From Microbacterium sp. EST19A (GTDB lineage: Bacteria > Actinomycetota > Actinomycetes > Actinomycetales > Microbacteriaceae): a DNA stretch of 64,000 bases. Below, piece by piece: positions 15,109 through 26,236 of this stretch. Location of the stretch: assembly GCF_019969685.1 (NCBI RefSeq), contig NZ_JAHXYZ010000004.1:186001-250000 (forward strand), read 5' to 3'. Within the stretch, counting starts at the first letter, position 1; every line of letters starts with the position of its first letter. Position numbers and translations under genes: made by a program. The notes under the pieces were generated by a model that was not told where the DNA came from, did no database searches, and saw only the letters and a list, made by a program, of their open reading frames with translations.

Positions 15109-17082
15109 TCAGGGTTCGACGACGATCTCGTCGGGCGTCTTGTCGGGGCGGAGCCCGCGCCAGCGCGCATGACGGAGCACTCCGTCGGGCGTCCAGTTCG
15201 CGAACTCGACCTCTCCGACCAGCTCCGGACGCACCCACAGCGCGTCCGACGCGTCGAGCGCGGGCACGCCGTCCAGGGGAGCCGTCTTCACCCGGAGCGG
15301 CTCGAGCCGCGTGAGCAGGTCGCGCAGGATGCGGTCGGTGAACCCCGTGCCGACCCGGCCGACGTAGCGCAGCTCCCGCGCGGTCCCCTCGGACGGCACG
15401 GCGAGCAGCAGCGAGCCCAGCGTGCTCTCCCGGTCGCCCTTCCCCGGACGGATGCCGACGATCACGGCCTCCTGCATGCGGGTGTGCTTGAGCTTGAGCC
15501 ACGCAGGTGAGCGCAGTCCCGGGCGGTAGCGGGAGCCGGGATCCTTGGCGACGACGCCCTCGAGACCGAACTGCTCGCTGGCGGCGAGAGCCGCGTCGAG
15601 ATCGTCGAAGACAGGCGGCACCTGCACCGGGGCATCGAGGTCGGCGACGAGGTCGTCCAGGAGCGTCCTCCGCTGCTGGAGGGGCATCGAGGTGAGATCG
15701 TGCCCGTCGAGGCGCAGCAGGTCGAACAGCATGTACACGATCGGCGTGCGCACCACTTCGCGTTCGATCTCCCGCGGCCGGGTCAGGTGCATCCGATTCT
15801 GCAGCAGCGAGAAGCTCGGCCGGCCGTGGGCGTCGAAGGCGACGATCTCGCCGTCGACCACGGCGTCCGCTGCGGGGAGGAACGGAGCGCCGTCTGCCGT
15901 GAGCTCGGGGTAGCGGGCGGTGATGTCGGTTCCGCGGCGTGCGTGCAGCAGCATCCGTCCGTCCGCCCATGTTCCCATGGCGCGGATGCCGTCCCACTTG
16001 ACCTCGACCCACGACGGGTCGCTGAGCGCGCGAGCAAGGGCGGGGGTGCCGTTCTCGGCGAGCATGGGGGCGAGCGTCGGGGCGGTCGCTCCGGATGCCG
16101 GAGGTGTGGTGTTCCGCGGGTATCGCGAGGACCGCCGCGGAGAAGATGTGGGACCAGCCGGCGTGACCGGTGCGGGAGCGGAGGAAGCGGCGGACTCCGG
16201 GCGCAGCGAAGCCAGGGGATCGACGCCCTCGGCCGCGCGGGCGAGCACCTCGTCGATGTCGAGCTGAGCGAGGTCGGGGTCATCGAGCTCGTCCCAGGTG
16301 CGCGGGGCGGCGACCCACGGCTGCGCACGACCGCGCAGCGAGTACGGCGAGATGGTCGTCTTCTTGCCGTTGTTCTGACTCCAGTCGAGGAACACCTTGC
16401 CGCCGCGCACCGCCTTCGACATGACGCTCGTCGCGAGGTCAGGGTGGTCGTTCTCGATGAGCCGGGCGAGCTCTTTCACGACGGCGGAGATCTCCTGGCT
16501 GGTCTGCTCGCCGGGAAGCGCCGCGTACAGGTGGATGCCTTTGCTGCCGCTGGTGACAGGCAGGGGATCGAGGCCCATGTCGGAGAGGATGCGGCGGGCG
16601 ATGCGCGCGACCTCGGCGCACTGCGCGAGACCCACGCCGGGCCCCGGGTCGAGGTCGAGCACCAGCCGGTCCGGACGGCCGGGCAGCCCGTCGGGGGCGA
16701 AGCGCCACTGCGGCACGTGCAGCTCGATCGCCGCGACCTGGGCGAGCCAGACGAGGGTCGGCACGTTCTCGACGAGCGGGTACTCCTTCGGGCCGTCGGA
16801 GTGCTGGATCGCCTGGCGCGGAATCCAGTCCGGCGCTCCGGGTTCGAGCTGCTTGGTGAAGAACGCGTCAGCCGGAGCATCGGCGGTTCCGACGCCCTCC
16901 ACCCACCGCTTGCGAGTGACGGGGCGGCCGTCGAGGAGGGGGAGCAGGAGGGGAGCGATCGCCGAGTAGTACGCGATGACCTCGCCCTTGGTGGTACCCG
17001 TCTCGGGGTAGACGACCTTGTCGAGGTTGGTGATCCGCAGACGGCGGCCGTCGACCTGCACGACCTGCGCTTCTCGGACCAT
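15109..17082 (-). CDS. ligD: LigD-type ATP-dependent DNA ligase with polymerase domain
   Basis: 657 residues in two domains. The N-terminal polymerase/primase domain (1-300) has the metal-binding DLDPG motif, SGSKGIHLY and FLDWSQN. A Pro/Ala-rich linker (about 310-345) follows. The C-terminal ligase domain has motif I EVKWDGIRAM with the adenylated Lys, LFDLLRLDG, EGVVAKDP and WLKLKH. The phosphoesterase domain found between or beside these in many LigD proteins is absent. It seals DNA double-strand breaks by non-homologous end joining with Ku, whose gene is divergent. A -10 TACGCT (17089-17094, minus strand) lies 6 nt before ATG 17082, which sets this start over a longer frame. Confidence 0.92.
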   Translation of the reverse strand: MVREAQVVQVDGRRLRITNLDKVVYPETGTTKGEVIAYYSAIAPLLLPLLDGRPVTRKRWVEGVGTADAPADAFFTKQLEPGAPDWIPRQAIQHSDGPKEYPLVENVPTLVWLAQVAAIELHVPQWRFAPDGLPGRPDRLVLDLDPGPGVGLAQCAEVARIARRILSDMGLDPLPVTSGSKGIHLYAALPGEQTSQEISAVVKELARLIENDHPDLATSVMSKAVRGGKVFLDWSQNNGKKTTISPYSLRGRAQPWVAAPRTWDELDDPDLAQLDIDEVLARAAEGVDPLASLRPESAASSAPAPVTPAGPTSSPRRSSRYPRNTTPPASGATAPTLAPMLAENGTPALARALSDPSWVEVKWDGIRAMGTWADGRMLLHARRGTDITARYPELTADGAPFLPAADAVVDGEIVAFDAHGRPSFSLLQNRMHLTRPREIEREVVRTPIVYMLFDLLRLDGHDLTSMPLQQRRTLLDDLVADLDAPVQVPPVFDDLDAALAASEQFGLEGVVAKDPGSRYRPGLRSPAWLKLKHTRMQEAVIVGIRPGKGDRESTLGSLLLAVPSEGTARELRYVGRVGTGFTDRILRDLLTRLEPLRVKTAPLDGVPALDASDALWVRPELVGEVEFANWTPDGVLRHARWRGLRPDKTPDEIVVEP

Positions 17083-17152
17083 GGAGCAAGCGTAGTCAGC
17101 CGTCGCCGTCAAGGGCTGGCCGTGACGGGTGTGGCTGGTGTTCACTGGGGGA

Positions 17153-17995
17153 ATGAGGACGATCTGGAAGGGCGCGCTGACGTTCGGGCTCGTGAACGTG
17201 CCGGTCAAGGTGTATTCGGCGACCGAGGACCACGACGTGCCGCTGCATCAGGTGCATGAGAAGGACGGCGGACGCATCCGCTATCAGCGCACCTGCGAGG
17301 TGTGCGGCGAGACGGTCGCCTATGCCGACATCGACAAGGCCTACGTCGAGGAGGGGCAGACGGTCGTGCTCACCAAGGACGACCTCGCCGCACTGCCGGC
17401 GGAGAAGAGCCGCGAGATCGACGTCGTCGAGTTCGTGCCCTCCGATCAGGTCGATCTGCTGACGCTCGACAAGCCGTACTACCTGGAGCCGGACTCGAAG
17501 TCGGCGAAGGCGTACGTGCTGCTGCGCAGGACGCTCGAGCAGACCGACCGCACCGCGATCGTGCGGTTCACGCTGCGCCAGAAGACGCGGCTCGCGGCTC
17601 TTCGCGTGCGCGGCAAGGTGCTGGTCCTCCAGACGCTGCTCTGGGCCGACGAGGTCCGCGAGGCCGAGTTCCCGGCACTCGACGAAGACGTGCGCATCTC
17701 GAAGAAGGAGCTCGAGATGTCGGCCGCCCTGGTCGACAGCTATTCGGCCGACTTCGATCCCGAAGCGTTCGTCGACGAGTACCAGAAGGAGCTCCGCACC
17801 CTCATCGACGCGAAGATCGAAGCGGGCGAGAGCTTCGAGATCGCCGACACGTTCGGCGAAGCGGAAGCCGAGGGCAAGGGCGGAGAGGTCATCGACCTCA
17901 TGGAGGCGCTCCGCGAGAGCGTCGCGCGGTCGAAGGAGAAGCGGGCGAGCGAGAAGCCCACGAAGGCCAAGAAGCCGGCGAAGAAGACCGGCTGA
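17153..17995 (+). CDS. ku: Ku protein (non-homologous end joining)
   Basis: 280 residues. It begins RTIWKGALTFGLVNVPVKVY, the bacterial Ku signature, with the Ku core to about residue 230 and a Lys/Ala-rich basic tail (residues 255-280) known in this family to bind DNA. Ku encircles DNA ends and recruits LigD. It is divergent from ligD with 70 bp between starts. ATG 17153 is chosen because the signature begins there. TTCACT 6 nt upstream is a weak -10 candidate. Confidence 0.95.
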   Translation: MRTIWKGALTFGLVNVPVKVYSATEDHDVPLHQVHEKDGGRIRYQRTCEVCGETVAYADIDKAYVEEGQTVVLTKDDLAALPAEKSREIDVVEFVPSDQVDLLTLDKPYYLEPDSKSAKAYVLLRRTLEQTDRTAIVRFTLRQKTRLAALRVRGKVLVLQTLLWADEVREAEFPALDEDVRISKKELEMSAALVDSYSADFDPEAFVDEYQKELRTLIDAKIEAGESFEIADTFGEAEAEGKGGEVIDLMEALRESVARSKEKRASEKPTKAKKPAKKTG

Positions 17996-19089: not shown

Positions 19090-19368
19090 TCAGGCGAGTG
19101 GACCGGAGCCCGGGATGAGCGGCTCGTCCGGGTTCGGGGCGAGCGGCTCCTCAGGGTTCGGGGCCAGCGGCTCCTGCGGGGTGGGGGCCAGCGGCTCGTT
19201 CGGGTGCGTCGGAGACGGCTCGTCGGGGAAGGCGGGCGACGGCTGCGACGGAGACGGCACGGCGGGCCCGGGAGGGGTCTGTCCGGGATCCGTCGGCTCG
19301 GGTCCTGTGGGCTGTTCGCCCGGGACGGAGGGGACGGGCGGGCCCGGGATGGGGGAAGAGTCGGTCAT
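19090..19368 (-). CDS. Small Pro/Glu-rich repetitive protein, function unknown
   Basis: 92 residues with no hydrophobic segment or signal peptide. Over a quarter are proline. The second half is a degenerate repeat of EPLAPNPEEPLAPNPDEP type (about 8 residues per unit), and the first half is PGPPVPSVPG-like. It is probably disordered. AAAGGA lies 6 nt before the ATG and a good terminator follows the stop, so the gene appears to be expressed as a single unit. No function can be assigned. Confidence 0.7.
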   Translation of the reverse strand: MTDSSPIPGPPVPSVPGEQPTGPEPTDPGQTPPGPAVPSPSQPSPAFPDEPSPTHPNEPLAPTPQEPLAPNPEEPLAPNPDEPLIPGSGPLA

Positions 19369-19456
19369 GAGAGTCCTTTCACTGAGTGATGCTCACGTGC
19401 CGTCAGTCCATCACCGCGGGGCGCTGCGGTCTGCACCCTTGCGCTTCGGATCGGCC

Positions 19457-19504
19457 TGTGGATAACTTCCGCGGGGCGGTCGTGGTTCTTGCGAGGATGC
19501 CGGG
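19457..19504 (+). promoter_or_regulatory. Tad promoter 1 with DnaA box
   Basis: TGTGGATAA (19457-19465), the complement of the consensus DnaA box TTATCCACA, is followed after 21 nt from the end of GTGGATAACT by TTGCGAGGATGC (19489-19500). The -10-like GAGGAT ends 6 nt before the GTG of tadA. The same arrangement and spacing recur before the flp part of the locus. Confidence 0.6.
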
Positions 19505-20647
19505 GTGAGTCATCCGTCCGCCCTCGTCGCCGAACGCGTGCGTTCGCGGCTGCGGGCCGAGGGAATCGATCCGTCGCTCGATCCCGAGACAGCTCGTCGT
19601 ATCGCGCAGTCCGAGGTGCGGCGTCACGACGATCGGGCGCTGGCGCGTGGGGAAGCGCTCATCGACGACGAGATCGCGTGCGTGCGCGACGTGCTCGCCG
19701 CCGTCAGCGGGCTCGGCGCTCTGCAGCCGTTCCTGGACGACACCGAGATCGAGGAGATCTGGGTGAACGGCGACGGGCACGTGCACGTCGCCCGCGGCGG
19801 GATCGGGGAGCGGGTCGGTCTGCACCTTGCCGAATCCACCGTGCGCGACCTGGTCGAGCGGATGCTGCAGCCCACCGGTCGTCGGGTCGACATCAGCCAG
19901 CCTTTCGTCGATGCCTCCCTGCCCGACGGCTCGCGGCTGCACGTCGCGATCGCCGACGTCGTGCGCGGTTCGTGGGCCGTGAACATCCGCAAGTTCTTGC
20001 CGCGCTATCGCACGCTCGAAGCGCTGACCGCGCAGGGGGCGATGCCCGTGGAGATCGCACGAATGCTCCGCGATGCGATGCTCAACGGACGGAGCGTGAT
20101 CGTGTCGGGGGCGACTCACGCGGGCAAGACCACGCTGCTCGGAGCACTGCTCTCCTCCTGTGCGGACTCGCAGCGCATCATCACGGTCGAGGAGACCTTC
20201 GAGCTCGCTGTCGACGGGCCTGATCTGGTGGCCCTGCAGGGAAGGCAGGCCGGGCTCGAAGGAACGGGCGAGATCACCCTGCGGCGGCTGGTGAAGGAGG
20301 CGCTCCGCATGCGTCCCGACCGCCTGGTCGTCGGCGAAGTGCGCGACGCCGAAGCCCTCGACCTCGTGCTCGCGCTCAACACCGGAGTGCCCGGCGCCGG
20401 AACCGTGCATGCGAACTCTGCGACAGAGGCGCTGGAGAAGCTCACGATCCTGCCCCTGCTCGCGGGACGGAACATCGATCGGGCCTTCATCGCCCCTGCG
20501 CTCGCCGCCGCGATCGATCTCGTCGTGCACTGTGTGCGGGACGCATCCGGAGCACGGCGCGTGCAGGAGGTCGTCGCGCCGACGGGCGCCGTGGTCGACG
20601 GACGCATCATCACCCGTGCCGTCTACCGCAGCGGAGTCGAGTCGTGA
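19505..20647 (+). CDS. tadA: TadA/CpaF-type secretion ATPase
   Basis: 380 residues. An N-terminal helical domain leads to the RecA-like ATPase with Walker A GATHAGKTT near residue 205, an Asp box with catalytic Glu (ITVEETFEL), Walker B-like RPDRLVVGEVR and a His box (GTVHANSA). It powers assembly of Flp/Tad pili at the inner face of the membrane. The GTG start lies 6 nt after GAGGAT and overlaps tadB by GTGA. It is the first gene of tadA-tadB-tadC. No CpaE/TadZ-like gene precedes it here. Confidence 0.92.
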   Translation: MSHPSALVAERVRSRLRAEGIDPSLDPETARRIAQSEVRRHDDRALARGEALIDDEIACVRDVLAAVSGLGALQPFLDDTEIEEIWVNGDGHVHVARGGIGERVGLHLAESTVRDLVERMLQPTGRRVDISQPFVDASLPDGSRLHVAIADVVRGSWAVNIRKFLPRYRTLEALTAQGAMPVEIARMLRDAMLNGRSVIVSGATHAGKTTLLGALLSSCADSQRIITVEETFELAVDGPDLVALQGRQAGLEGTGEITLRRLVKEALRMRPDRLVVGEVRDAEALDLVLALNTGVPGAGTVHANSATEALEKLTILPLLAGRNIDRAFIAPALAAAIDLVVHCVRDASGARRVQEVVAPTGAVVDGRIITRAVYRSGVES

Positions 20648-21501
20648 CCGTCCTGGTCGGCGCGCTGCTGGCCGCAGGTCTGCTGCTGTGTCTGTCGCCA
20701 TGGATGTGGCCGCAGACCGACGGCGAGACGCCGACATCCCGTCAGAGTCGGATGGGGCTCCTCCTCGAAGAGGCAGGCATGGACGCCGTCGCGCCGCGGG
20801 CTGTGATCACCGTCATGGCGGCAGCGGCCCTGATCGTCGCGTCGGTCGTCTGGCTGCTGACCGGCATCCCCGTGCTGTCGATGCTCGCTGCCATCGCCGC
20901 CGCGGTCGCCCCCGTGATATGGCTGCGCGGGCGTCGGATGAGGCTGCGTCGCCTTCGTCGTCAGCTGTGGCCGGATGTGTGCGACCTGCTGATCGCCGCG
21001 ATCCGCGTCGGACTCTCACTGCCTGACGCCGTGGCGAGCCTCGCCGAATCGTCACCGGCGATGCTGCGGCCTGCCTTCCTCGTGTTCGCGCGCGACCTGC
21101 GCGCCACGGGCAGGTTCGAGACGAGTCTCGACCGCCTGAAGACGTCGCTCGCGGATCCGATCGGAGATCGGATCGTGGAGACCCTGCGCATGGCGCGTCA
21201 AGTCGGCGGGACCGAACTGATCTCCGTGCTGCGCGCCCTGTCGTCGTCGGTGCGCGCGGACGCCGCTCTGCGAGGCGAAGTGGAGGCACGCCAGTCGTGG
21301 ATCCGCGGTGCGGCCCTACTCGGAGCGATCGCGCCCTGGGTCGTGCTCGGGCTGCTGGTCATGCGACCGGAGGGCGCGTCAGCGTACGGCACACCGGAGG
21401 GTGTGGTGGTGATCTGCGTCGGTGCCGCCGTCTCGGTGACGGCCTTCCGCATCATGGTCCGCATCGGCAGGCTTCCGGAGCCTCGGAGGTGGTTCGGGTG
21501 A
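20644..21501 (+). CDS. tadB: TadB-like pilus assembly membrane protein
   Basis: 285 residues. Two membrane segments near the N terminus are followed by the cytoplasmic T2SSF/GspF domain (RRLRRQLWPDVCDLLIAAIRVGLSLPDA, residues about 100-240) and C-terminal membrane segments. It is an inner-membrane platform subunit working with TadC and TadA. The GTG start overlaps the tadA stop and the TGA overlaps the tadC GTG. Confidence 0.88.
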   Translation: MTVLVGALLAAGLLLCLSPWMWPQTDGETPTSRQSRMGLLLEEAGMDAVAPRAVITVMAAAALIVASVVWLLTGIPVLSMLAAIAAAVAPVIWLRGRRMRLRRLRRQLWPDVCDLLIAAIRVGLSLPDAVASLAESSPAMLRPAFLVFARDLRATGRFETSLDRLKTSLADPIGDRIVETLRMARQVGGTELISVLRALSSSVRADAALRGEVEARQSWIRGAALLGAIAPWVVLGLLVMRPEGASAYGTPEGVVVICVGAAVSVTAFRIMVRIGRLPEPRRWFG

Positions 21502-22436
21502 ACGGCCTCTCGGCGCTCGCGAGCGCGGTGCTGATCGGCGGGACCCTCGCCGCCGGGCTGCTCTGCATCCTGGCGGCGCTGCCGCGGTGGCGGGCGGCCT
21601 CACTGACCGTTCGCATCGCCCCCTATGTACGCGACGTCGTCGCCGATGCGGACATGCCCCGCGGTCTCCTGCCCGCGACCGGCATGCTGCCCGCGAGCGG
21701 CCGGAGCCTCTGGCAGCGCGCGCAGCAGGCGTTCGAGCGGATGCTGGGCGGTGGCGAAGCCCTGCGGCAGCGCCTCGGTCAGGCAGGGGTGCGCACGGAT
21801 CCGGTCACGTTCCGAGGACGTCAGCTCGGCTGGATGCTCGGGGGAATCGGTGCGGGTGCGCTCGCCGTGATCGCCTTGGCGGTTGCGGGCAGGATGTCGG
21901 TGCCTGTCACGATCATTCCCCTCCTGACCGGAGCCCTGACTGCCGTCGGGTACGACATGCAGCTCTCCGCGCGGTCGAAGTCTCGTCGCGCGCGACTCAC
22001 GGACGAGCTTCCGACGACGCTGGAGTTCCTCGCGCTGTGCCTGTCGGCGGGTGAGGGCTTCCTCGATTCGTTGCGACGCGTGGCCGCGGTCGGCTCGGGT
22101 GAGCTCACCGCCGAGCTGCGTCAGGTGGTGCTCGCCGCCGGGACGGGCTCTCCGCTGGCGGATGCTCTGGGGGAGATGTCCAGCCGACTGCAGCTTCCCG
22201 GACTCTCTCGGGCTGTCGACCAGGTCATCGCCGCACTCGAACACGGCGCACCTCTGGCCGGAGTGCTGCATGCGCAGGCCGGAGACGCCCGGGAAGACGC
22301 GAAGCGCACCCTCATCGAGCAGGCCGGGCGCAAGGAGATCCTCATGCTCCTCCCACTGGTGTTCCTCATCCTTCCGCTGTCCGTGGTCTTCGCGATCTAC
22401 CCCGGACTCTTCATCCTCCGACTCGGCATCGGCTGA
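21498..22436 (+). CDS. tadC: TadC-like pilus assembly membrane protein
   Basis: 312 residues, with an N-terminal membrane segment, a charged region containing RQRLGQAGVR, two central membrane segments, the T2SSF domain (ELPTTLEFLALCLSAGEGFLDSL) and a final hydrophobic segment ending LFILRLGIG. It is the second platform subunit of the Tad machine. GTG 21498 overlaps the tadB stop. A copy of its last 25 nt appears upstream of flp at 24718-24741 (see findings). Confidence 0.88.
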   Translation: MNGLSALASAVLIGGTLAAGLLCILAALPRWRAASLTVRIAPYVRDVVADADMPRGLLPATGMLPASGRSLWQRAQQAFERMLGGGEALRQRLGQAGVRTDPVTFRGRQLGWMLGGIGAGALAVIALAVAGRMSVPVTIIPLLTGALTAVGYDMQLSARSKSRRARLTDELPTTLEFLALCLSAGEGFLDSLRRVAAVGSGELTAELRQVVLAAGTGSPLADALGEMSSRLQLPGLSRAVDQVIAALEHGAPLAGVLHAQAGDAREDAKRTLIEQAGRKEILMLLPLVFLILPLSVVFAIYPGLFILRLGIG

Positions 22437-22440
22437 CCAA

Positions 22441-22860
22441 CCAGGAAAGGGCGCGCATCACGGCGCACAGGCAGAACCTCCGGGGCCACCGCCTCCCGCG
22501 TTGGTGGCGTGACACGAGAGCATGGCGCGGCTCTCCGCGCCTCTGCTACCGTGCACTCGAGCCCGCCCAAGGTGCATCTACCCGGTAAGGGTGCATCCAA
22601 CCCGCAGTCTGTCGAGGGTGGTCGCCTGTTCGAGCCAGGCCGGGTCCGGGAGACGCACGGCACTGCGGGTGCTGTCGGCGTTTCCGCCTCTGGTCGAGTT
22701 CACCCTGCCGGGAGCGTTCCTCCAAGACGAGCGGGGAGACGCTTTCAGCTGGGCGCTGGTCCCGCTGACGACGGCGGGGCTCGTCGTCCCGATCTGGCCG
22801 TCGCAGGGTCCGGCGCTCACGCCCTCTTCGAGGCGGTTGCCGACTCGTACGTGGCGGACG
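22441..22860 (+). pseudogene. Degenerate flp pilin copy
   Basis: This 505-bp gap (22437-22941) holds a decayed copy of the flp gene at 24766-24993. Block A, 22441 to about 22540, matches 24750 to about 24850, including the ribosome-binding site, but the start codon ATG is ATC here. Block B, 22728 to about 22855, is roughly 80% identical by eye to the last 125 nt of flp and encodes DERGD...TAGLVV, but carries single-base deletions and an insertion that break the frame. About 185 bp of unrelated sequence separates the blocks. It lies 4 bp after tadC, exactly where flp stands in an ordinary tad operon. Confidence 0.7.
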
Positions 22861-22941
22861 CTGGGCGACGCAGACCCGCCATGCGCTGATCGCGCGTGGC
22901 GGGTCTGTGGTGCGGACGGGGGCCGGCCGGGCTGTCGCCGA

Positions 22942-24438
22942 TCAGGCCGAGCGGCGTCGAGCGAGCATGGTCATCGCACCCCCGACGAGCAGCAGCCCGC
23001 CGAGGGCGGCGAACCCGATGAGCTGGGCGGTATCGATTCCGGTGTTGGCGAGCGAGCCGTTGCCCGTTCCGCCGCCATTGCCCGGACCGGCCGGTGTCGA
23101 GACGACGGCGACCGAGAAGGAGACCGGCGCGGAGGATGCCGAGGTACTCGCGGGCACGATGCCGCTCGCGCTGGCTGCACGAGTCGCTGTTGCGGTGACG
23201 GTGAAGTCACCGTTCGCGAGTTCGACGGGAAGGGTGAACGTACCGTCCGGCTGCACGATGGTCGTCAGCGTGGCAGGAGTCTCGATGGCCGCCGCGGCAA
23301 ATGCGGGGCCCTCGTCGTCCGGTGCTGCTTCCGCTGCCGCGGGCTCGATGACGATGGTGATCGTCTCGCCGGCGTCACCCGTGCCGCCAATGATCGTCGT
23401 CGTCGAAGTGACGGTCGAGCCTTCGGTCGGCGCGGTGATCGTGGGGACGTTGGCGACGCAGTCCAGCGTGACGGTCTTGGCATCGAGGACGACGGTGTTT
23501 CCGTCGACGTCCTCCGTCACGACCTGTACGACGGTCTCGACGTCTTCCACGAGCGACACGGAGCGGATGCGAGTGTCGCCCTCAGCGACCGTGCCGCTCT
23601 CGATCACGGTCTCGCCGTCGAGGAAGGCGTAGGGGGCGTCGGAGGTGCCGAGCGAATTGTCGAAGGTGTACTCGACACCGGCGATGGTCGGAACAAGGAT
23701 GCCACCGGTCGGGATCTCGCACGAGGCGTCCGTGACGGCGCCGGTGGGAGCCGGGCCCGGTTCGCAGTCGAGGTCGAAGGCGCCCGTCGCGAGTGTGACG
23801 GGATTACCGGTCGCATCGACGGATCGAATCGCGGAGGTGCCGCTTTCATTCGGCGTGAGCGACGCTGCATAGGACCGCGTCTCGCCCGCCGCGAGAGTGC
23901 CGCTCTCGATGACGGTGCCGTTCTTCACGAACTCGTAATCAGCTGCCCCGATTCCCGCCGTGTTGTCAAAGGTCCAAAGGAATCCGGGCGACGGCGGGAT
24001 GATGCCACCGGTCGGAAGCAGACAGCTGGCCTCGCCGATGGCGGCGACCGCAGCCGGGCTCAAGTTCGGGGTGCAGTTCGCCGTCTGCACGGAGCCGGAG
24101 ATGACGCCGCCTTGCGTGTCGATGACCTGGAAGGTCGTCGACACGTCCTCGAGGACCGGGAGAACGTAGTCGTCGCTCTCGCCGGCGGCGAGGGTGACGT
24201 TATCGAAGAGCACGGTTCCCAGGTCCTGCACGATCTTGTAGGTCAGGTCTGTGGCGTCGTCTGCGGCATTGTCGACCGTGATGCTCACGGTGGCAGCTGA
24301 GGGGACGGTGCAGTCGGGTGCTGCGATCGTGGCGGAGGATGGAAGGGCCTGAGCGGGCAGCGCGGTCAGGATGACGCCCGCGACGCTGAGCGTGACGACG
24401 CCCATCGCTGCGAGTGTTCGTGTGAGCATGGACGACAT
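22942..24438 (-). CDS. LAxTG-anchored surface protein with three repeat modules
   Basis: 498 residues. There is a signal peptide (LTRTLAAMGVVTLSVAGV, cleavage about ALPAQA|LPSS). Three tandem modules of about 90 residues each begin with a Cys (DCTVPS, SCLLPTGG, SCEIPTGG), contain T.DN...Y and G.LA.GE segments, and close with another Cys. They are followed by an Ig-like APTEGSTVTS domain, a Gly/Asn linker, and the sorting signal LANTG (residue 463), a hydrophobic helix and RRRSA. LAxTG is the motif of class E sortases of high-GC actinobacteria. It is likely a cell-wall adhesin or stalk. It lies antisense between the two halves of the Tad locus. AAGGAG is 11 nt before ATG 24438. Confidence 0.8.
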   Translation of the reverse strand: MSSMLTRTLAAMGVVTLSVAGVILTALPAQALPSSATIAAPDCTVPSAATVSITVDNAADDATDLTYKIVQDLGTVLFDNVTLAAGESDDYVLPVLEDVSTTFQVIDTQGGVISGSVQTANCTPNLSPAAVAAIGEASCLLPTGGIIPPSPGFLWTFDNTAGIGAADYEFVKNGTVIESGTLAAGETRSYAASLTPNESGTSAIRSVDATGNPVTLATGAFDLDCEPGPAPTGAVTDASCEIPTGGILVPTIAGVEYTFDNSLGTSDAPYAFLDGETVIESGTVAEGDTRIRSVSLVEDVETVVQVVTEDVDGNTVVLDAKTVTLDCVANVPTITAPTEGSTVTSTTTIIGGTGDAGETITIVIEPAAAEAAPDDEGPAFAAAAIETPATLTTIVQPDGTFTLPVELANGDFTVTATATRAASASGIVPASTSASSAPVSFSVAVVSTPAGPGNGGGTGNGSLANTGIDTAQLIGFAALGGLLLVGGAMTMLARRRSA

Positions 24439-24630
24439 TGTTCTGAGTGCTCCTTCATTGGATGCGTGAGATTTCGCAGTGGCGGCACCGAGCGGGATTC
24501 TGCGAGACGGGGAGCGCGCTCTGCGCGACGCCCGCGTCGTCACACGCTGCCTCTCTACATTCGGAACCATCGGTATATCGGATTGAGTTTCGTGTGAGAT
24601 TCACGGGCTTCCCGCCGTGGGTTCGCGACC
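24439..24630. other. Intergenic region, surface protein to flp
   Basis: About 190 bp between the surface-protein start and the second Tad promoter. It is a little richer in A+T than its surroundings near 24555-24605 (ATCGGTATATCGG), which probably holds the minus-strand promoter of the surface protein. No gene was seen. Confidence 0.4.
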
Positions 24631-24678
24631 TGTGGATAACTCCGGCGTCATTCACGAGGAGTTTGCGAGGATGCTCAG
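24631..24678 (+). promoter_or_regulatory. Tad promoter 2 with DnaA box
   Basis: GTGGATAACT (24632-24641), 21 nt, then TTGCGAGGATGC (24663-24674), and 6 nt from GAGGAT to a GTG at 24679. Motifs and spacing match promoter 1 upstream of tadA. TGTGGATAA at 24631-24639 is a consensus DnaA box on the minus strand. It should drive flp-tadE-tadE-tadG. Confidence 0.6.
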
Positions 24679-24765
24679 GTGCATCATCTCTCCCGCATCG
24701 ACGCCCCCGACATCGCTCCTCATGCTCCGACTCGGCAGCGGCCGATCGGCCAAGAAAGCCCGACC

Positions 24766-24993
24766 ATGACGGCGCTTCTGCAGAAGATCCCGGGCGCCGG
24801 CCGGCTTGTGCGCGGATGGCACGACGCGAGGGGGTGGGCTCGATCGCTCGCAGCGGACGAGCGCGGAGACGTGCCCGGCTGGGTGCTGGTGACGCTGATG
24901 ACGGCAGGGCTCGTCGTCCTGATCTGGGCCGTCGCGGGTCCGGCGCTCACCTCGCTCTTCGAGCAGGCGATCGAGCGGGTGTCCGGTCTCTGA
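24766..24993 (+). CDS. Flp-type pilin (DUF4244-like small prepilin)
   Basis: 75 residues: a basic N terminus, then DERGDVPGWVLVTLMTAGLVVLIW, i.e. a charged Gly-Asp site followed by one hydrophobic helix, and a short amphipathic end. This is the architecture of small Tad pilins in actinobacteria, which are cleaved before the helix by a prepilin peptidase (not in this window). ATG 24766 is preferred because its AGAAAG ribosome-binding site is conserved in the decayed copy at 22441. An in-frame GTG at 24679, 6 nt after the -10, is the alternative and would add 29 residues. The stop is 1 bp before the next gene. Confidence 0.75.
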   Translation: MTALLQKIPGAGRLVRGWHDARGWARSLAADERGDVPGWVLVTLMTAGLVVLIWAVAGPALTSLFEQAIERVSGL

Positions 24994-24994
24994 G

Positions 24995-25396
24995 ATGCGG
25001 TTCCCTGGCGTGCTGCGCGAGGAGCGGGGTTCGAGTCCGGTCGAGTTCGTGTTGGTCGGCACGCTCCTCACTGTGCTCACTCTGGCTGTGCTGCAACTCG
25101 CGCTCGCCGTGTATGTGCGGAACGTCGTCCATGATGCGGCGGTGGAGGGCGCGTACCACGCGGCCCTTGCGGACACGACTCTGGACGAGGGTGCGGAGCG
25201 CACCCGCATGGTCATCACCCAGGCGATCGGCGCGGCCTATGCCGAAGAAATCACGGTGGGTACCTCGGAGACGCTCGGACACGAGACCGTCGACGTGCGG
25301 ATCCGCGCGCCTCTTCCCGTGATCGGGCTCGTCGGCGTTCCCAACGCACTGGAGGTGGAGGCGCATGCACCGGTTGAGAGCCTGGGCGACGAATGA
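24995..25396 (+). CDS. TadE-like pseudopilin
   Basis: 133 residues. EERGSSPVEFVLVGTLLTVLTLAVLQLALAVY has the (G/S)-S-x-x-E-F pattern preceding one membrane helix that defines TadE-like proteins, followed by NVVHDAAVEGAYHAA and an extracytoplasmic domain. It is predicted to be a minor pilin of the Tad apparatus. It starts 1 bp after the pilin stop and overlaps the next gene by 32 bp. Confidence 0.8.
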   Translation: MRFPGVLREERGSSPVEFVLVGTLLTVLTLAVLQLALAVYVRNVVHDAAVEGAYHAALADTTLDEGAERTRMVITQAIGAAYAEEITVGTSETLGHETVDVRIRAPLPVIGLVGVPNALEVEAHAPVESLGDE

Positions 25397-25820
25397 GGAC
25401 GGATCTGCGGCGCTGGAGTTCATCACGGTCGGGGTCATCCTGCTGGTTCCGCTCGTGTACCTGGTGATCGCCCTCGGCGCGATCCAGGAGCAGACGCTCG
25501 GAGCCGAGGCCGCGGCGCGTCACACGGCTCGTGCGATCGCCATGGCGCCGGATGCAGCCGCAGCCACCGCCGACGGAGAGGCAGTGCTCGCGGGGATCAT
25601 CGAGGAGTACGGCCTCGATCCCGACGCCGTCGACGTGTCCTTGTCGTGCTCTCCGGCAGGGGTCGACTGCCCATCCGCCGGAGCCACGCTCATCGTCACC
25701 GTCGCCGCGCGGGTGCACCTGCCCCTGGTGCCACCGGTGTTCGGTCTCGAACGCGCGACCTCCATCGCCGTGCAGGCGGAAGCCGCGCAGAAGGTCTCGC
25801 GTCTCTGGGGGTCCGAGTGA
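25365..25820 (+). CDS. Second TadE-like pseudopilin
   Basis: 151 residues. NEDGSAALEFITVGVILLVPLVYLVIALGAIQEQ again gives Gly-Ser-x-x-Leu-Glu-Phe and a single helix, then AEAAARHTARAIA and a secreted domain with two Cys (SCSPAGVDCP). It is a paralogue of the preceding gene in layout. ATG 25365 has GGTGGAGG 3-10 nt upstream inside the previous gene. Its stop overlaps the next GTG. Confidence 0.8.
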   Translation: MHRLRAWATNEDGSAALEFITVGVILLVPLVYLVIALGAIQEQTLGAEAAARHTARAIAMAPDAAAATADGEAVLAGIIEEYGLDPDAVDVSLSCSPAGVDCPSAGATLIVTVAARVHLPLVPPVFGLERATSIAVQAEAAQKVSRLWGSE

Positions 25821-26236
25821 GCGACGATTCCCGCGCGGGGGAGGAGGGGAGCGTGCTGCTCCTGACGCTCGGGTACGTGCTGCTGGCGATCGCCGTCGTC
25901 TTCGTCTGCGTGTGCGCGACAGACCTGTACATCGCGCAGAAGCGGCTCGATGCCCTGGCCGATTCAACCGCGCTCGCCGGAGCCGACGGCTTCACGCTGC
26001 AGGTCGAGGGTGACGCGGTGAGGGCGGAACTGACCGATGCCGGCGTCGAAGAGCAGGCGTCGGCACTGGTGGAGGCGCTGCCCGGCGACGCCGAACTCGT
26101 CGACGCCGCGACGCCGGACGGGGTCTCTGCCCGGGTCACGGTCGCGGCGACGTGGCGTCCGCCGCTGTTCTCGCCCTTCGTCCCTGACGGGGTGGCGCTG
26201 GAGTCGACGGCGACGAGCCGCACCGCGCTGCGGTGA
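25817..26236 (+). CDS. TadG-like pilus-associated protein
   Basis: 139 residues. EEGSVLLLTLGYVLLAIAVVFVCVCATDLYIAQKRLDALADSTALAGADG is the Tad_N pattern (Gly-Ser, one helix, then a helix rich in Ala with a conserved Asp-Ser-x-Ala-Leu-Ala). The rest is a short secreted domain. It is the last gene of the pilin cluster. GTG 25817 overlaps the preceding stop by 4 bp (GTGA). A longer frame lies inside the preceding gene and is rejected. Confidence 0.75.
   Translation: MSDDSRAGEEGSVLLLTLGYVLLAIAVVFVCVCATDLYIAQKRLDALADSTALAGADGFTLQVEGDAVRAELTDAGVEEQASALVEALPGDAELVDAATPDGVSARVTVAATWRPPLFSPFVPDGVALESTATSRTALR

Follow-up and report, generated by a model that had tools for sequence, protein, structure and literature searches.

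Flp pili are reported to be needed for natural transformation in Micrococcus luteus (PMC4322843). Competence genes are described as targets of mobile DNA: prophages and other mobile genetic elements disrupt comYC, comFA, comM, and comK, with prophages interrupting comYC, which encodes the competence pilin, and divergent integrases converging on two sites in comFA (PMC4774983). Serine integrases were also reported in cluster EH phages of Microbacterium (PMC8758107) and in cluster AZ phages of Arthrobacter (PMC9030533). In the open-access literature searched, mainly at listing level, we found no report of integration into flp or tadC. Here we analyze a tad locus in a 64,000-nt stretch of the genome of Microbacterium sp. 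EST19A (contig NZ_JAHXYZ010000004.1, positions 186,001 to 250,000; below, the window). This locus has the same gene order and gene families as the tad locus of M. luteus, but it is split after tadC, one of its flp copies is dead, and a second leader is present. We think it somewhat probable that the split arose by a local duplication in this lineage, and that the copied leader would serve as a second tad promoter.

Organization of the split tad locus

The genes of the locus are ordered tadA, tadB, tadC, flp, two tadE-like genes, and a tadG-like gene, and an antisense surface-protein gene is located between tadC and flp, as had been stated in an earlier reading made from the sequence alone (the sequence-only reading). 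The assignment to the Tad (Flp) pilus family is based on a tadA ATPase, two T2SSF proteins, and TadE/TadG-like proteins found in this order. The prepilin gene flp was identified by its GDVPGW...TAG core, which in contiguous relatives lies between tadC and the first tadE-like gene (tadE1), while the Pfam search gave no family match for flp. The features of the locus are as follows:

19456..19504, forward strand: tadA leader with the box CTGTGGATAAC at 19456-19466; the GTG start lies 49 nt downstream of the first box base
19505..20647, forward strand: tadA, ATPase (Pfam T2SSE, 3.8e-39)
20644..21501, forward strand: tadB (Pfam T2SSF, 6.8e-08)
21498..22436, forward strand: tadC, complete (Pfam T2SSF, 2.4e-16; 94% identity over 312 amino acids to genome G211)
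22457..22540, forward strand: N-terminal part of flp copy 1, with ATC at the start (from comparison with the G211 junction)
22541..22690, forward strand: dispersed, conserved element of about 150 bp inside flp copy 1 (from genome searches in the genus)
22726..22832, forward strand: decayed core of flp copy 1, with frameshifts (from alignment to intact flp)
22942..24570, reverse strand: orphan surface-protein gene, 542 amino acids (open reading frame; genus-wide search)
24630..24705, forward strand: copy of the tadA 5′ end, with the box at 24630-24640, a promoter-like stretch, GTG 24679, and about nine codons (from alignments)
24679..24993, forward strand: intact flp, 104 amino acids, with predicted leaderless start at GTG 24679 (open reading frame, box spacing)
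24716..24765, forward strand: copy of the last 8-10 or so codons of tadC and of the tadC–flp spacer (from alignments)
24995..25396, forward strand: tadE-like gene (Pfam TadE, 1.7e-09)
25365..25820, forward strand: second tadE-like gene (Pfam TadE, E 0.0074, under the curated cut-off; assigned by position and relatives)
25817..26236, forward strand: tadG-like gene (Pfam Tad (TadE/G-like), 1.1e-04)

Duplicated segments on both sides of the split

To evaluate the similarities between the two sides of the split, each local alignment score was set against 500 dinucleotide shuffles. The data showed that the stretch 22726-22832, downstream from tadC, aligned to the core of intact flp at 24856-24963 with a local score of 127, which none of the 500 shuffles reached (mean 21.8, maximum 40). 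The two cores were identical at 92 of 106 positions (13% different), and this match to the window's own intact flp was the best one, followed by that to G211 (80/94). The preceding junction, 22383-22490, was identical at 97 of 108 positions to the contiguous tadC–flp junction of G211, the nearest relative. The start codon position of copy 1 is ATC, and 12 differences in 70 nt are spread over all three codon phases. These data bear out the claim of the sequence-only reading that a decayed flp with ATC start and frameshifts follows tadC. What that reading missed is that this is one flp (22457-22832), which is split by the element at 22541-22690 into an N-terminal piece of about 84 nt and a core piece. 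There is no overlap between the N-terminal and core parts, so they were assigned to one flp with an inserted element, and the option of two separate flp remnants in 22457-22832 was dropped. The arrival of the flp-like core together with the element from a donor similar to locus L180 was also rejected, because the core is most similar to the window's own flp and then to G211, while the element is most similar to that in L180.

The second set of similarities is located upstream of the intact flp. The end of tadC with the following spacer (22407-22486) was identical to 24716-24795 at 60 of 80 positions (25% different), and the leaders of tadA and flp also aligned to each other; neither score was reached by any of the 500 shuffles. 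For a control stretch inside tadA 342 of 500 shuffles reached the score, which means no excess. When compared without gaps, the two leaders were identical at 33 of 49 positions, a value reached by 2 of the 127,904 49-mers on both strands of the window, one of which is the flp leader itself. Similarly, the 27 nt after the tadA start were identical to 24679-24705 at 19 positions, which was reached by 6 of 127,948 27-mers on both strands, itself included. Hence, the near copy of the tadC end before intact flp and the resemblance of the flp promoter and first 27 nt to those of tadA, both of which the sequence-only reading had pointed out, stand, and all three similarities that it named are better than those of shuffled sequence. 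The flanking segments are thus present in two homologous copies.

The open reading frame from GTG 24679 continues in frame through the copy of the tadC end into flp, and ATG 24766 is the counterpart of the flp start in contiguous relatives. When tadA leaders and flp-type leaders of other loci were scored against the flp leader of the window, the best tadA leaders scored 32-41, while the best of 14 flp-type leaders scored 27. The identity to tadA after the start was 19/27 here versus 6-13/27 in four other loci that also have the box ahead of flp. Since the similarity extends beyond the start codon, as it does not in these four loci, the comparison suggests that the flp promoter in the window was most likely copied from a tadA.

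The surface-protein gene that lies antisense between the halves ends, as judged by eye, with an LANTG-like motif, a hydrophobic stretch, and a basic tail. Of the remaining 365 genomes in the genus none yielded a full-length relative of it, and 29 gave weak matches, mostly to the C-terminal part.

The tad box and the predicted second promoter

The box CTGTGGATAAC occurs ten times in the genome, while its reversed control pattern occurs 0 times. It is located exactly 49 nt before the starts of tadA, flp (GTG 24679), a SAF-domain gene, and a lipoprotein-like gene, and this spacing suggests that the flp half probably stays co-regulated with the first half through a second leaderless tad promoter. 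The latter two genes are at L290 and L291 (G000 C7:513746 and C8:106839). The SAF-domain protein is presumably CpaB/RcpC-like, and the lipoprotein-like gene had no Pfam match; the presence of the box at both hints at a tad regulon. Among the other six boxes three are within 1.75 kb of each other, one is upstream of a dnaK-like gene, and two are without a clear gene. The box motif contains a DnaA box, and the three clustered boxes could be origin-like.

To see how the box is distributed, tad loci of relatives were surveyed; the counts refer to loci and not to independent genomes, because the named loci (L numbers) and the genomes (G numbers) overlap. In 60 of 61 box-bearing tadA genes, from the named loci and the window, an in-frame start was located 48-50 nt away. 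Among 14 box-bearing flp leaders inspected, the window's excluded, 13 had a start 49 or 50 nt away. A box between tadC and flp was present in 11 of 15 split loci (window included, as well as L197, in which flp is cut by an element) versus 4 of 147 contiguous loci, defined by an flp core at most 330 bp from tadC and including a few in which flp is cut further on (e.g., L013, L164, L220). Hence, while the box and leader architecture is established by comparison, the box is predicted to be a leaderless tad promoter, which flp would need once it is unlinked from the promoter of tadA.

Derived state and age of the split

The synteny of relatives, by which the sequence-only reading had proposed to check its account, was compared using TadC. 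TadC matches were obtained in 325 genomes, and among the 90 best of these tadE1 was within 290 bp of tadC in 71 and not in 19, the window included; genomes with truncated tadC are under-represented in this set because they score lower. All nine genomes that rank next to the window in TadC similarity are among the contiguous ones, so the split is the derived state. The divergence at fourfold sites was 287/911 (31.5%) to G211 and 46% to the next relative. The copies within the window differ by 13-25%, which is below the value for G211 and fits a duplication within this lineage. The tadE–tadG genes are as close to G211 as tadABC are, which indicates that the right half is native; its import was therefore dropped.

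A proposed local duplication with loss on both sides

Together, these comparisons are consistent with the following account, which we favor slightly. A once-contiguous Microbacterium Tad (Flp) pilus locus would have been split by local duplication in this lineage, most likely by a tandem duplication of tadABC–flp followed by an internal deletion in copy 2. In the left unit tadABC and its promoter would have been retained, and the flp would have decayed and acquired the dispersed element. In the right unit flp–tadE–tadE–tadG would have remained, preceded by a copy of the tadA 5′ end that is joined to the end of tadC, with the orphan surface-protein gene antisense between the two units. The copied leader, with the box, a −10-like element, and the leaderless start at GTG 24679, could then act as a second tad promoter, so that both halves would be co-regulated.

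The sequence-only reading had proposed such a duplication with reciprocal gene loss. Its observations that flp and the tadC end are duplicated and that the flp leader is of the tadA type are sustained, and the nearest relatives are contiguous, while the complete second tadABC that it postulated is unsupported: all that was recognized of tadA–tadC in copy 2 was some 27 nt of tadA coding sequence and some 25 nt from tadC. That reading also overlooked the element in copy 1, the orphan status of the surface-protein gene, the likely function of the leader, and the junction as a general integration hotspot. It is still the best single route on offer, and the capture of short fragments is a live rival.

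Several points weigh against a duplication of the whole unit in this lineage. In copy 2, no sequence was recognized from about codon 10 of tadA through to codon 302 of tadC, and the leader alignment starts at 24626 with no extension further upstream. The genome's own tadA leader is absent from the 12 best matches to the flp leader, among which L025 scored 41 and G211 36. The flp leader is also only moderately closer to that of tadA than other such leaders are (33/49 versus 19-29/49 in four other loci). Finally, the 108-bp comparison is too short to order the duplication and the split from G211, and the sample contains a single strain of this species.

The tadC–flp junction as an integration hotspot in relatives

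The interruptions in relatives are concentrated at the same junction. Among 79 named loci with usable tadC, tadE1 was more than 400 bp away or was not found in 23, two of which run off the contig and one of which (L047, 499 bp) may merely have a long spacer. The span from tadA to tadC was normal in 79/79 named loci and that from tadE1 to tadG in 64/64. In 21 interrupted genomes, which were chosen and not sampled, tadE1 was located in every case, and in nine of the G genomes (G322, G100, G192, G238, G017, G303, G263, G262, G162) tadC and tadE1 were on one contig, 7.8-37.9 kb apart. At the left borders flp breaks off after GDVPGW or some codons farther on, or the similarity to tadC stops at residues 286-299. 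At the right borders there is the remainder of flp, or the end of tadC followed by a complete flp (L244, L248, L261).

Ten open reading frames from ten genomes, chosen for their recombinase-like look, all had a Resolvase domain together with a Recombinase or zinc-ribbon domain. In relatives a recombinase gene stands beside attachment-site (att) borders, as in integrative elements. They form at least five groups, with at most 48% identity between groups over long alignments:

G017, G303, and G366: cut after GDVPGW
G162 and G109: cut a few codons past GDVPGW
G322, G192, and one recombinase of G175: cut further 3′
G100 and the other recombinase of G175: tadC end
G263: tadC end
G262

G175 and G262 each seem to carry two consecutive elements. 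The matches of the G303 recombinase open reading frame to tadE regions were not counted, because it extends into tadE and the matches were taken to be antisense artefacts. Two representative recombinases of relatives had no phage record with at least 60% identity.

These data led us to propose that in Microbacteriaceae the tadC 3′ end and the flp core are a shared attachment region for several unrelated elements with large serine recombinases and for prophages, which would be the actinobacterial counterpart of the prophages found in comYC; that loci in which flp has lost its link to tadABC could recover through a tad box (CTGTGGATAAC) placed ahead of flp, at 49 nt from its leaderless start; and that in the window the repair would have been made by the copy of the tadA 5′ end. 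We consider the chances of this proposal evenly balanced. It has to be set against several observations: L069 has tadA in two overlapping pieces, L121 (G056) has parts of tadA around the dispersed element, and G238, G371, and some others were without a recombinase match in the stretches examined. There are also small inserts free of recombinases, such as a gene in L013, presumably DUF1254-like, and an oxidoreductase-like gene with a regulator-like gene (by eye) in L222 and L223; these could reflect ordinary gene insertion and not recombinase activity.

Two further observations concern this region. In L077 (12918-15900), from Rhodoglobus, there are several repeated tadC 3′ ends with small open reading frames between them, and no tadE1 in the 8 kb after tadC. 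L266, L267, L279, and others have large serine recombinases with visible borders, which are possible genome-engineering tools.

The dispersed element in the genus

The element inside flp copy 1 was searched for in 366 genomes of the genus, the window's own included. Matches at E ≤ 0.001 were found in 24 genomes, and in 10 (own included) they had E < 1e-15, the others being short or weak. In L180, L200, and L020 (G050, G243, G297) the element is located between tadC and an intact flp and adjoins an additional truncated flp. In L121 (2-3104) it lies between two overlapping parts of tadA, beside an open reading frame of another kind, and L116, L117, L119, and L120 have no tad gene within 1.5 kb on either side of it. 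Copies are also present at L114, L115, and L118, there are one or two per genome, and the element has a promoter-like start and possibly an RNA structure. L020 (8021-9856) contains two flp 5′ parts cut in the same codon region, two copies of the element, an open reading frame of 196 amino acids, and then one intact flp.

A known RNA was considered and dropped, as the element had no Rfam match at the gathering cut-off or at E up to 5, and folding of the window copy was no better than that of shuffles (z −0.27). In eight sequences 5 of 48 predicted pairs had two-sided changes. Carriage by phages or plasmids was also rejected, because no match was found in phages and the only plasmid match was a partial one, to a Tsukamurella plasmid (77% over 54%).

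Other routes to the split

As a general integration hotspot, the junction also opens other ways to such a patchwork. The first is that a break between tadC and flp was mended, either through end joining or following DNA uptake, with the capture of a short tadA-leader fragment, a tadC–flp fragment, and the surface-protein gene, so that no full second tadABC ever existed. The presence of tadA and tadC as short pieces only is what this route would leave, and the Ku and LigD genes are encoded upstream of tadA. The insert of L068, which is flanked by a 140-bp repeat of the tadC end at 97%, and the repeated tadC ends of L077 also speak for it. However, it requires host-derived fragments to have joined in the operon's own order and orientation. 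The flanks of the surface-protein gene (22820-22960 versus 24560-24640) share no word of at least 7 nt, which is neither for nor against end joining. On balance, we regard this route as unlikely, though it deserves to be kept in view.

The second is that the window carries the scar of an element that entered flp or the tadC end by a serine recombinase, brought an flp 5′ part and a promoter of its own, and then lost its recombinase. This is suggested by the five or more divergent large serine recombinases at this junction in relatives, and by L180, L200, and L020, in which an flp cut resembling the recombinase borders of relatives is followed by the dispersed element and a further flp copy. On the other hand, there is no recombinase-like open reading frame between tadC and flp in the window, where att half-sites were searched for by eye only, tadC is complete with its native junction, and integration alone would not duplicate 80-110 bp of host sequence. 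We therefore find this explanation quite improbable. The view that nothing was duplicated, the flp leader having evolved its promoter independently and the tadC-like and flp-like stretches being due to chance or constraint, can draw on four contiguous loci with a box before flp and no tadABC copy, and on four other box-before-flp loci in which the similarity to tadA stops at the start, but it is close to refuted by the shuffle and k-mer tests and by homology that spans non-coding spacer and decayed sequence.

The genome that contains the window is 4.45 Mb long in 14 contigs (G000), and its closest named TadA relative is that of Microbacterium sp. TPD7012 (89%). The LigD and Ku genes, which belong to end joining, are located at 15109-17995, about 1.5-4.4 kb upstream of tadA. 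On the opposite strand upstream of tadA, 19090-19368 encodes a proline-rich protein of 92 amino acids with EEPLAPNP-like repeats, which is present in some close relatives.

Comparison with known systems

Under the duplication account, the window presents a pilus operon that was cut in two although both halves kept the same type of switch. A specific start codon is also predicted, the leaderless GTG 24679 of flp. Taken alone, it is a moderately interesting operon split with promoter duplication, while the hotspot and the 49-nt tad box are worth following. The relatives supply several new pairs of recombinase and attachment site.

The Listeria phage A118 integrase is reportedly a large serine recombinase with its attB in comK. 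The recombinases of the relatives are similar to integrases of this type in having Resolvase and Recombinase or zinc-ribbon domains and borders inside a conserved gene, while the window itself is without a recombinase. By parallel with M. luteus, the window locus may encode a transformation pilus. Unrelated recombinases repeatedly hit, at sites about 200 bp apart, a pilus which in a different actinobacterium is used for DNA uptake. This would open the conflict between mobile elements and transformation to testing in a group where the papers searched held no such reports. The case differs from that of comYC-type prophages in its target, the Flp/Tad pilus of Microbacterium and its close relatives, in the use of large serine recombinases, and in that the window is without an element. 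The likeness is that in both cases a pilin or pilus gene is the common target of unrelated integrases; the elements of the relatives break flp or the tadC end.

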